From contig NC_006177.1 of the NCBI RefSeq assembly GCF_000009905.1, positions 496,001 through 560,000 on the forward strand: 64,000 nucleotides of DNA. Direction: 5' to 3'. The DNA is from Symbiobacterium thermophilum IAM 14863 (lineage in GTDB: Bacteria; Bacillota; Sulfobacillia; Symbiobacteriales; Symbiobacteriaceae). Each line of letters begins with the position of its first letter. Within the stretch, counting starts at the first letter, position 1. Of this stretch, positions 41,687 through 51,931 are shown in pieces. A program made the translations under genes and the position numbers. The notes below the pieces were generated by a model. The model did not search any database. It saw only the letters and a program-made list of their open reading frames with translations, and was not told where the DNA came from.

Positions 41687-42145
41687 TCACTCCCGTTCTG
41701 CGGCTGCCGCCAGGGCCTTCCGGACCCAGGCCCGTACCTCGTCGGTCAGCGGAATCCGGTCCAGGTCCTCGGGGCCGTACCAGCCCACTCGGTCCACCTC
41801 GTGGTTGGCCGTGAGCCGGACGGCCCCGGGGTCCGCCGGGCGGGCGAAGTAGATGAGGTCGATGTGCTCGTGGCCGGGCGCGATCTGCTCCAGCTGGACG
41901 CCCTCGGGGCGGGCCAGTTGCCGCGGCCCCGGAATGGGGGGCAGGGCGGGCGGCGAGATCAGACGCACCTCCAGGCCGGCCTCCTCCCGCACCTCCCGCA
42001 CGGCCGCCTCGTCGGGCAGCTCGTTGGGTTCGATGTGGCCGCCGGGCGGGAGCCACATGCCCAGTTTTCGGTGCCAGAGGAGGAGGACCTTGCCCTCGTG
42101 GACCACGAACGTGGCCACGGTGAAGTCGCGCGTCACAGCCGTCAT
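41687..42145 (-). CDS. Nudix hydrolase
   Basis: A 152-residue Nudix protein. The Nudix box follows GMWLPPGGHIEPNELPDEAA and reads REVREEAGLEV, giving the GX5EX7REUXEEXGU signature with metal-binding Glu residues. The ATG at 42145 (MTAVTRDFTVATFVVHEGKV) follows AGGAG by about 12 bases. The substrate, such as an oxidised nucleotide or ADP-ribose, cannot be told. It lies 6 bases upstream of the lipoprotein gene start. Confidence 0.88.
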   Translation of the reverse strand: MTAVTRDFTVATFVVHEGKVLLLWHRKLGMWLPPGGHIEPNELPDEAAVREVREEAGLEVRLISPPALPPIPGPRQLARPEGVQLEQIAPGHEHIDLIYFARPADPGAVRLTANHEVDRVGWYGPEDLDRIPLTDEVRAWVRKALAAAAERE

Positions 42146-42407
42146 TTCCCTGAACAGCTCCTTCGGGTTGTGCGTTTTCGGGTCCGCCGTCGGGCTTCGA
42201 TCATAGGCTGGGTCTGTGAGGTGAACCACATGCTGTGGACTCGATTCCGCGGCAAGTCCGCGGCTGTCCGGCAGAGCGCGGGAAGCCTGTTTGCACCCCG
42301 GTCCGCCGGGGTCAGGCGGACGGGCGGGTGCCGCTGCGGGGGCCGGGCGGCCCAGCGGACACCGGCTGCCAGGTGAGCGCATAACCTGACGGAGGGGGGT
42401 TGCGGCG

Positions 42408-42755
42408 ATGAACTGGGACGACATGGGGACCATGCCCTACGGCGGTACGGCCATGCCCATGGGGATGGACGGCATGCCTTACGGCAAGTGGAACATGCCG
42501 TACGGCAAGGGTGGAATGCCCTTCGGCAAGGGCGGGATGCCCTTCGGCAAGGGCGGGATGCCTTTCGGCAAAGGCGGCATGCCCTTTGACAAGGGCATGC
42601 CCTTTGGAAAGGGCGGTATGCCGTTCGGCAAGGGCGGGTTCGGCAAGATGCCCGGCTGGGGCGGCGTTCCCGGCGGCGGCTTCGCCAAGCAGTACCCGCC
42701 CGGGATGGTGGGCATCCCTTACGGCTTCTACCCGGGGTATGGCCTGGTTCAGTAG
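42408..42755 (+). CDS. MPFGKGG-repeat low-complexity protein
   Basis: A 115-residue protein dominated by a 7-residue repeat. From residue 30 (42495) to 42638 there are seven units: MPYGKGG, three of MPFGKGG, MPFDKG (one residue short) and two more MPFGKGG. Gly- and Pro-rich flanks start MNWDDMGTMPYGGTAMPMGM and end with PYGFYPGYG. GGAGGGGGG precedes the ATG. There is no signal peptide or membrane helix. I do not recognise a family. It might be a spore-coat or other structural protein, but I have only composition to judge. It stands alone. Confidence 0.7.
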   Translation: MNWDDMGTMPYGGTAMPMGMDGMPYGKWNMPYGKGGMPFGKGGMPFGKGGMPFGKGGMPFDKGMPFGKGGMPFGKGGFGKMPGWGGVPGGGFAKQYPPGMVGIPYGFYPGYGLVQ

Positions 42756-42784
42756 CGGAACCACATGAGGGGCGGCAGGGCCGG

Positions 42785-43837
42785 TTACGGCGCCTGCCGT
42801 CCGCCCGTTTCGGCGCGCCGCCCGAGCGGGTGCAGCCGCCACCCCATATGACGCATCTCGGACAGGATCAGATGCAGCTGCAGCCCGTACTCCCGCCGGT
42901 CGCGCCGGTCGATGAGGGCGGACACCAGGCCGTCGAACGCGGCCAGGGCGGCCTCGCACTTCCGGGCGGCTTCCCGGTCGACGGCCGCGCCCCGCAGGAC
43001 CCCGTCCAGGACGGCGCCCTTGTACGCCTGCAGCGCCCGCATGGCCGCCGCCAGCGCCTCCCGCTCGGGGCCGTACCCGACGCCGCCCATGTCCGCCGCG
43101 ATCCGGTGGATGACGGCCACGGCCGCCACGAACCCCTCCAGCACGGCGTGGGCCTCCCGCAGCGTCTCGGCGTCTTCCGCCCGGCCCTCCGCCTCGGCGA
43201 AGTCCAGGAGGGTCCGGGCGGCGGACAGGCGTCTCCGGGCCTCGTCGGCGTCCTGGCTGAGCTGCGCCGCGGGGTAGTCCTGCGGGTGGCTGAGGCTGAG
43301 AAGCAGCCGGTCGATGCTGGCGTCCAGCTCCCGGTTGCCCTCCGCCAGCTCGGCGCGGGCCCGCCCCAGGGCGTCGGGCGGATGGATCAGCCGGTTGACC
43401 AGGAAGCCCACCGTCATCCCGACGACGATGGTCGCCATGCGCGCAAGGGTGTACAGAAGGAAGTCGTGCTGGGGACGGTCCAGGACGAACAGGACCACGA
43501 CCACGGCGAGGCCGGCGGCTTCCGTGAGGCGCATCCGCACCAGGATGCCCAGGGCCAGCACGGCGCCCAGGGCCATGGTGAGGGGGTTGACCGGCAGCCA
43601 CAGTCCCAGCAGCGTGGCCACCGCCCCGGCCACGGCGTTGCCCACCAGCTGCTGCAGGAAGGCGTTCTTGGCCTGCGTGATGGACGGCTGCACGGCGAGC
43701 ACGGCTGCCACCGCGCCGAACGTGGCGTAGGCGGAGCCGAACCAGTGCAGGAGGGCCAGGGACAGGAAGACCGCGACGCCGGTCTTCAGGATACGGGCGC
43801 CGAAGAACGGCTGGAGCACGCGCAGGGGCAGATCCAT
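42785..43837 (-). CDS. Aromatic acid exporter-like (FUSC) membrane protein
   Basis: A 350-residue protein of the ArAE/FUSC type. The N-terminal half has about six membrane helices, with ILKTGVAVFLSLALLHWFGS, FGAVAAVLAVQPSITQAKNA and GMTVGFLVNRLIHPPDAL. The C-terminal half is helical and cytoplasmic, with EGNRELDASIDRLLLSLSHP. Members export aromatic carboxylic acids or related compounds; the substrate is not known here. Confidence 0.82.
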   Translation of the reverse strand: MDLPLRVLQPFFGARILKTGVAVFLSLALLHWFGSAYATFGAVAAVLAVQPSITQAKNAFLQQLVGNAVAGAVATLLGLWLPVNPLTMALGAVLALGILVRMRLTEAAGLAVVVVLFVLDRPQHDFLLYTLARMATIVVGMTVGFLVNRLIHPPDALGRARAELAEGNRELDASIDRLLLSLSHPQDYPAAQLSQDADEARRRLSAARTLLDFAEAEGRAEDAETLREAHAVLEGFVAAVAVIHRIAADMGGVGYGPEREALAAAMRALQAYKGAVLDGVLRGAAVDREAARKCEAALAAFDGLVSALIDRRDRREYGLQLHLILSEMRHMGWRLHPLGRRAETGGRQAP

Positions 43838-50770: not shown

Positions 50771-51931
50771 GTGGACCGACTGGCCAAGCGCGACTACTAC
50801 GAGATCCTTGGCGTTCCCCGGAACGCCACCGAGGCCGAGATCAAGAAGGCCTTTCGGAACCTCGCCCGCAAGTACCACCCTGACGCCAACAAGGACGACC
50901 CCGACGCGGCCGAGAAATTCAAGGAGATCAACGAGGCCTACCAGGTCCTCTCTGACCCGGAAAAGCGGGCCCGCTACGACCAGTTCGGTCACGCGGCGGA
51001 GCAGATGGGCGGGGCCGGCGGCAACCCCTTCGAGGGCTTCGGGGGCTTCGGCGATTTCGGGGGATTCAGCGACATCTTTGAGATGTTCTTCGGTGGCGCC
51101 GGTCGGCAGCGGAACCCCCGCGGACCGGTCCGGGGCGCCGATCTGGAGTACGAACTGGAGCTGACCCTGAAAGAGGCGGCCTTCGGCTGCACCAAGGAGC
51201 TGCGGGTGCCGCGCGTCGAGGACTGCGACACCTGCCACGGTTCCGGCGCACGGCCGGGCACCCAGCCGGTGACCTGCCCCAAGTGCGGCGGCACGGGCCA
51301 GGTCCAGATGACCCAGCACACCGTCTTCGGCCGGTTCGTCAACGTGATGACCTGCGATCGGTGCCGCGGCGAGGGCAAGATCGTCGAGTCGCCCTGCCCC
51401 ACCTGCCGTGGCCGGGGGCGCGTGCAGAAGACCCAGCGGGTGGAGGTCAAGGTGCCTGGCGGCGTGGAGACCGGCACGCGGCTGCGCATGCCGGGTTACG
51501 GCGAGGCCGGCGAACGCGGCGGCCCCCCGGGAGACCTGTTCATCGTCATGCGGGTCCGCCCCGACCGGCGGTTCCGGCGGGAGGGCGACGACCTGTTCAC
51601 CACCACCGAGATTTCCTTCATCCAGGCCGCGCTGGGCACCGAAATCGAGGTGGAGACCCTGGACGGCCCCGAGCTCATCAAGATCCCTGAGGGCACGCAG
51701 CCGGGGGACACCATCCGGCTGAAGGGCAAGGGGACCCACCGCTTGCGGGGATCCGGCCGCGGCGACCTGCACGTGGTCATCAGCGTGAAGACGCCCGGGC
51801 GGCTCTCCGAGAGGGAACGGGAGCTGCTGTTGGAGGTGGCTGCCCTGCGCGGCGAGCGGGTCGCCGGAATGACGGAGAACAAGGAGAAAAGCTTTCTGAA
51901 GAAGATGAAGGACGCCCTCGGCGGCCGCTGA
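50771..51931 (+). CDS. dnaJ: Chaperone DnaJ (Hsp40)
   Basis: A 386-residue type I DnaJ that delivers substrates to DnaK and stimulates its ATPase. The J domain begins [20 protein letters not shown], with the HPD motif at YHPDAN. A Gly/Phe region follows ([20 protein letters not shown]). The four CXXCXGXG zinc repeats read [24 protein letters not shown] and CPTCRGRG. The GTG start follows AAGGAG by 8 bases. Confidence 0.97.

Follow-up and report, generated by a model that had tools for sequence, protein, structure and literature searches.

A heptad-repeat protein of Symbiobacterium as a candidate structural protein of the spore outer layers

Introduction

CotG-like genes share a chromosomal organisation, with a position beside cotH. 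In BclA-type exosporium proteins, a variable repeat body is joined to a fixed C-terminal part whose tail is a folded trimer domain, and the elastin- and resilin-like disordered elastomers combine high Pro and Gly contents with aromatic residues and short tandem repeats. CotG-like coat proteins of Bacillus are described as modular and disordered proteins with tandem repeats, not homologous between species and positively charged in most cases (PMC9765600). According to the same source, repeats of 6-7 residues in B. subtilis CotG space two interacting ends, deleting repeats changes the permeability of the coat, and the phosphorylation sites for CotH lie mostly in the repeats (PMC9765600). The collagen-like BclA-type proteins are placed under sigma-K control in C. 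difficile in another study (PMC3789822). Galperin et al. (2012; PMC3533761) consider it likely that the spore coats of other Firmicutes contain proteins still to be identified, for which low-complexity families are candidates.

Here we describe a gene for a repeat protein in a 64-kb stretch of Symbiobacterium thermophilum IAM 14863 DNA (the window, by which we mean the whole stretch analysed, 496001-560000 of a single 3,566,135-base contig). Its product resembles CotG in having central tandem repeats, here eight units of 6-7 residues, and a positive charge, although a much weaker one (net +5.5 and pI 9.6, vs. +57 for CotG). Unlike in CotG, the repeat is made of Met, Pro, Phe, Gly, and Lys without Ser, Arg, or His, and no sequence relation is known. 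The gene is not beside cotH either: the CotH match lies at positions 880613-881545 of contig C1, whereas the repeat gene lies at 538408. The 115 residues of the window protein include no Ser that could correspond to the phosphorylation sites for CotH. Because the gene is not beside cotH and its repeats lack Ser, we do not place the protein in the CotG group; the two-ended spacer is only half matched, since the N-terminus is not conserved and there is one conserved end. By analogy, CotG of B. subtilis would be the nearest described mode of action, without group membership. In contrast to BclA, the heptads hold no GXX collagen triplets, and the 28-residue tail has no folded trimer domain. Low complexity is the feature shared with the candidates of Galperin et al. 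(2012). The protein differs from elastin and resilin in its intracellular origin and in its repeat, and we claim no relation to them. Among the best title matches in the literature there was no coat-protein study of the genus, and the string MPFGKGG was not found in a literature search.

Results

The Repeat Gene and Its Product

The features of the locus, in window coordinates, are the following.

42361 to 42363, forward strand: -35-like element ACC (sigma-K type AC), with 17 bases between the AC and the -10 box in all three genus genomes
42380 to 42389, forward strand: -10-like element CATAACCTGA (CATANNNTGA), in all three genus genomes
42391 to 42399, forward strand: ribosome-binding site GGAGGGGGG, read from the sequence, with GGGGG preserved in both other genomes
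42408 to 42755, forward strand: coding sequence, 115 aa, pI 9.6
42474 to 42638, forward strand: eight heptad units, consensus MPFGKGG, from TRF and unit-by-unit comparison
42669 to 42755, forward strand: invariant C-terminal tail PGGGFAKQYPPGMVGIPYGFYPGYGLVQ and stop, identical in all three genomes
42770 to 42802, no strand assigned: G+C-rich hairpin between convergent genes, a predicted stem that reaches into the 3' end of the neighbour

The frame runs exactly from ATG to TAG over the positions listed, and its product is composed of 32% Gly, 14% Met, 14% Pro, and 9% Lys, with seven Tyr and without Ser, Cys, His, Arg, or Glu. The array within it is the top-scoring one reported by TRF for the 64 kb (42495-42637, period 21, 7.0 copies, score 167). 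Read in order, the units are MPYGKWN, MPYGKGG, MPFGKGG three times, MPFDKG, and MPFGKGG twice more, so that exact MPFGKGG makes up five of the eight MP[FY]-type units; no heptapeptide exceeded three occurrences across 2000 shuffles of the protein. The original prediction had described seven near-identical 21-base units, one of them a codon short. The array and its short unit (MPFDKG, 18 bases and six residues at 42579-42596) are confirmed, and the count becomes eight, or seven when started from 42495.

The same prediction read the array as a sign of recent slippage. This fits the adjacent pair at 42516 and 42537, the only copies with identical DNA, but not the array as a whole: the seven units at 42495-42638 depart from the majority letter 13 times, and 11 of these departures fall at third codon positions. 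Thus, the repeat peptide was kept while the DNA drifted, and the silent differences between units are evidence against a recent origin of the whole array. Over longer times the repeat number clearly changes, as the orthologue lengths of 115, 162, and 194 aa demonstrate.

Pfam and NCBIfam, each searched at E-values up to 10, returned no family for the protein, in agreement with its first description as a member of an unknown family. A likeness to Formin 1 (E 2.8e-4), the best of three matches to solved structures, was judged to be low-complexity chance. AlphaFold returned a mean pLDDT of 49.5 and no secondary structure (from an alignment of three sequences only); in this model the repeat body looks disordered and is probably unfolded. 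The original prediction had called the make-up reminiscent of structural or phase-separating proteins; its disordered look is supported, and phase separation is a conjecture. The tail is aromatic, contains the peptide QYPPGMVGIPYGFYPGYGLVQ, and ends in ...GIPYGFYPGYGLVQ. All three orthologous proteins have a pI of 9.4-9.6 and a net charge of +5.5. The ribosome site had already been rated as good, and a G-rich site stands in the same role in the other two genomes. Downstream, the hairpin stem is predicted in all three genomes with z of only -1.1, -1.8, and -1.6 against shuffles; it is weakly indicated as a possible terminator without a T run, and a terminator scan found none.

Conservation Within the Genus

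The original prediction was made to depend on the frame being kept in relatives, and within the genus it is: the gene is present at the same place in both other genomes searched (G001 and G002). The order of NUDIX gene, repeat gene, and ArAE_1 exporter gene is the same in all three genomes, the Pfam names of these neighbours being those of the window's copies. The downstream neighbour is convergent. A DUF1256 gene, which we take to be of the same family as the spore protein YyaC, lies close to the repeat gene in the window.

The last 28 residues are identical in the three species. Over the C-terminal 29 codons, the pairs of genomes differ by 9, 12, and 11 bases, all at third codon positions and with no amino-acid change, a silent-only pattern that was never matched when the differences were placed at random 20,000 times for each pair. 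The N-terminus differs, being MNWD in the window protein and MFYG in the other two, and the two orthologues do contain Ser (4 and 10 residues), part of it in variant units like MPSGQMA. Judged by these sequence comparisons, this is a real gene, found among the genomes searched only in the three of the genus.

Across the class, strong matches to the C-terminal 36 residues were found in three of 154 genomes; the other 18 of the 21 genomes with E-values up to 0.1 scored 0.026 or worse. No orthologue was found outside the genus by a profile scan of the genome contigs, in which none of 593 pattern stretches was confirmed, and the C-terminal pattern occurred in a single stretch, on a MAG contig (cf. 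G002 contig 43). An initial search gave matches at E-values up to 1 in 30 of 61 genomes, including three that were rejected as homologues. Those in G003 (3.8e-9) and G004 (4.3e-4), which represent related genera, are DNA arrays without one continuous frame. They lie between genes (L004:1530-1767, 21-base, 11.3 copies; L006:1593-1868, 22-base, 12.6 copies), and the genes beside them are unlike each other (E 0.48). In these two genomes the exporter appears to adjoin a serine-hydrolase-like ORF instead, and no repeat gene was found in the 1.5 kb exporter flanks or by a motif scan of the loci. The third match, in G041 (4.0e-5), comes from a protein of SPFG repeats whose gene has the same promoter form and which we take as a parallel. 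A further 24 weak-match loci (L007-L030) were scanned by script.

A Sigma-K-Type Promoter Motif

For C. difficile mother-cell promoters, a published study gives a -35 of AC for sigma-K and ATA for sigma-E, with a -10 box common to both, and assigns dpaA to sigma-K and sipL to sigma-E (PMC3789822). Upstream of the repeat gene we found a sigma-K-type AC -35 together with a CATANNNT -10. All three upstream regions have AC-N17-CATANNNTGA followed by the G-rich ribosome site, the third base of the ACC being T in G001. Within the 64 kb, counting both strands, CATANNNTGA has only this one occurrence, and ACC-N16-CATANNNTG was found once where 0.07 were expected. AC-N17-CATANNNT alone is not telling (one found, 0.71 expected); with TGA added, one was found and 0.00 expected. 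No sigma-70 promoter was found in 42100-43000, and CATANNNTGA was rejected as a promoter for cotH, where the spacing is 11 and the position uncertain.

The -10 box ends 20 bases ahead of the ATG, which would leave a very short leader of about 14 bases that starts inside the G run. Similar distances occur at other motif sites, for example L101, L104, L111, and L114. SigK (TIGR02846) scores over its curated cut-off in all three genus genomes and in none of 14 control genomes, B. subtilis being included among the failures. Because the -10 box is common to both factors and sipL is sigma-E controlled in C. difficile, sigma-E, to judge from the promoter sequence, may control the repeat gene instead of sigma-K.

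Genes Behind the Same Motif

In the genome of S. thermophilum (G000), ACC-N16-CATANNNTG has 23 sites, vs. nine for the reversed control, so that some of the 23 must be chance. The looser AC-N10..24-CATANNNTGA is in mild excess over its reversed control in G000 (51 vs. 37), in clearer excess in G002 (42 vs. 23), and not in excess in G001 (48 vs. 45). With the three genomes pooled, the spacing from AC to CATANNNTGA peaks at 17 (17 of 81 rows, 5.4 expected), followed by 15 and 12 (10 and 9 rows); the count used forward-strand rows only, since minus-strand rows seem to give just one spacing for each site, and its rows are not independent, as they come from related genomes with several rows per site.

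An ORF of at least 40 aa with a crude ribosome site begins within 130 bases downstream of 20 of the 23 sites, vs. 801 of 1840 positions drawn at random from these loci; three sites have no ORF behind them. The Pfam comparison took in 16 of the 20 motif genes, two of them via the G002 or G001 orthologue, and left out L110, L113, L119, and L121. The motif genes include those for a DpaA_N protein (dipicolinate synthase A homologue, E 2.4e-26), a SipL/SPOCS protein (E 2.6e-10, scored on the G002 orthologue), and a LysM-LysM-GH18 protein (by Pfam). Others encode a UDP-glucose dehydrogenase, GNAT proteins, a nucleotidyltransferase, and several proteins without a family. Two NMT1-like binding proteins (one by Pfam, one by reading) and an arginase-family gene count against a spore regulon. 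Upstream of the SPOCS gene and two YGGFG small-protein genes, the motif is present in nine of nine regions in the three genomes; two of these regions had been picked by the motif and seven had not. Together, the promoter, regulon, and conservation evidence supports the link to sporulation that the original prediction had hinted at.

Other Low-Complexity Proteins

PFGK/GKPF/SPFG-type motifs occur in four further proteins, of 56, 139, 101, and 280 aa. The 56-aa ORF (L111:1542-1712, forward strand, near C1:1985227 of the same genome as the window) begins MMFYGFGKPFYGKSFLGKPFVGKPFFGKGF..., repeats GKPFYGK-SFLGKPFVGKPFFGKG, and has no Pfam family. It lies under ACC-N16-CATATGCTG and has MFYG near its start, as do the two orthologues of the repeat protein; from its sequence it looks like a small cousin of the latter. 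The 139-aa protein (L076:4524-4943, reverse strand), with orthologues of 140 and 132 aa (L066 and L067), ends in GKGKPFGKFGI. Its gene adjoins a GNAT gene, and ACC-N16-CATANNNTGA stands ahead of both genes in all three genomes. Nearby in G002, a 101-aa ORF holds KFFGKPFAKPFGKGSGKPFFKG, and CATANNNT was not found within 110 bases of it.

The 280-aa protein (L005:1159-2001, reverse strand) belongs to G041, from another family of the class. It has ten SPFG units with AC-N17-CATAGTTTGA just upstream, and is the only locus with the motif among the 27 weak-match loci L004-L030. On sequence, it may be regarded as a parallel PFG-repeat coat candidate.

Two paralogous Gly/aromatic proteins of 80-81 aa (L120, L121, and L095-L100) begin MNFGGFG... 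and MHYGGFG..., have ends such as GYPGWYGI or GKGFGI, and carry the same promoter form in the three genomes. A 322-aa Pro/Gln/Ala repeat protein (L119, C1:2732500, reverse strand, in the window's own genome) has PQIQPGVAAQGLPG units behind ACC-N16-CATAAGATG. Within the window, a loose motif set applied to 546 stop-free stretches gave 13 matches, seven in the repeat gene and six elsewhere (two overlapping). A short CTTCGGGGG repeat at 51028-51072 may correspond to the Gly/Phe region in a DnaJ-like gene.

Discussion

We consider it likely that the repeat protein is a lineage-specific structural protein of the outer layers of the endospore, made in the mother cell and thus a candidate for the coat or spore surface; both its location and its mechanism are what we infer. 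The reason is the combination of a late-sporulation-type switch, as in known spore genes, with an invariant stretch of 28 final residues and freely differing repeats. Sigma-K RNA polymerase would transcribe the gene late, in the mother cell. The disordered MPFGKGG body would stay flexible as a spacer or adhesive filler, its Phe, Tyr, Met, and Lys side chains making many weak contacts, and the number of units could therefore drift at little cost. The constant aromatic tail (...GIPYGFYPGYGLVQ) would dock the protein on a specific coat partner. Free length with a fixed tail is expected of a flexible spacer or filler that docks at one end.

The promoter speaks for cell type and time but not for place, and the motif also stands ahead of enzymes that need no coat location, such as the dipicolinate synthase A homologue and the UDP-glucose dehydrogenase. 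The protein could thus be made late in the mother cell and act outside the coat, for example by filling the cytoplasm, by serving as a scaffold until it is degraded, or as a storage protein set free when the cell lyses. We regard this as rather improbable, given that an invariant tail on a freely varying body suggests binding to a fixed partner, and that several other low-complexity proteins also have the motif ahead of their genes. A role in handling copper or a similar metal, for which Met, present about once per heptad, would be the soft ligand, would suit the Met contents of 14%, 12%, and 16% in the G000, G002, and G001 proteins. It is made very unlikely by the spacing of the Met residues, most commonly 7 in two of the three proteins (7 of 15 and 8 of 18 spacings) and 3 in G001, by the lack of His and the presence of only 0-2 Cys, by the lack of a signal peptide by eye, and by neighbours that are NUDIX, ArAE_1, and DUF1256 genes.

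In G+C-rich DNA with many shadow ORFs, the frame might also be spurious, lying over a 21-base DNA minisatellite without a protein product, and the G003 and G004 arrays, which have no continuous frame, did score as weak matches. We dropped this explanation given the silent-only differences of the tail across three genomes; the predominance of third positions among the unit differences (11 of 13) and the conserved promoter motif and ribosome site likewise leave it hardly any probability. The C-terminus, invariant up to the stop behind a variable body, would be compatible with a regulatory peptide of the leader or arrest type that is conserved at this end. Since the next gene downstream is convergent, there is no gene in cis for such a peptide to control, and no membrane segment is seen by eye; this reading was dropped as well and is now scarcely credible.

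Returning to a structural role in the spore outer layers, a broader proposal can be made, tentatively and with a good deal of doubt. The coat of this G+C-rich spore-former might be assembled largely from small disordered proteins of its own, unrelated to one another but with a common sticker language (PFGK/KPFxGK, Phe-Gly-Lys). Sigma-K would switch them on jointly, and through aromatic-lysine and methionine contacts they would condense into a shell without the Bacillus transglutaminase. Tgl (PF20085) was found in none of the three genus genomes, and Lys-Gln crosslinking by this enzyme was rejected on that ground. Another family of the class may have reached the PFG solution independently.

The repeat protein represents a new family within a known kind, that of repeat-built, low-complexity, and lineage-limited coat candidates. 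Coat proteins show little conservation, and outside Bacillus they are easily overlooked. With one promoter rule and conservation combined, candidate coat genes of the genus can be read off as a list, and the repeat protein offers a concrete test case for whether repeat "sticker" proteins build a coat.
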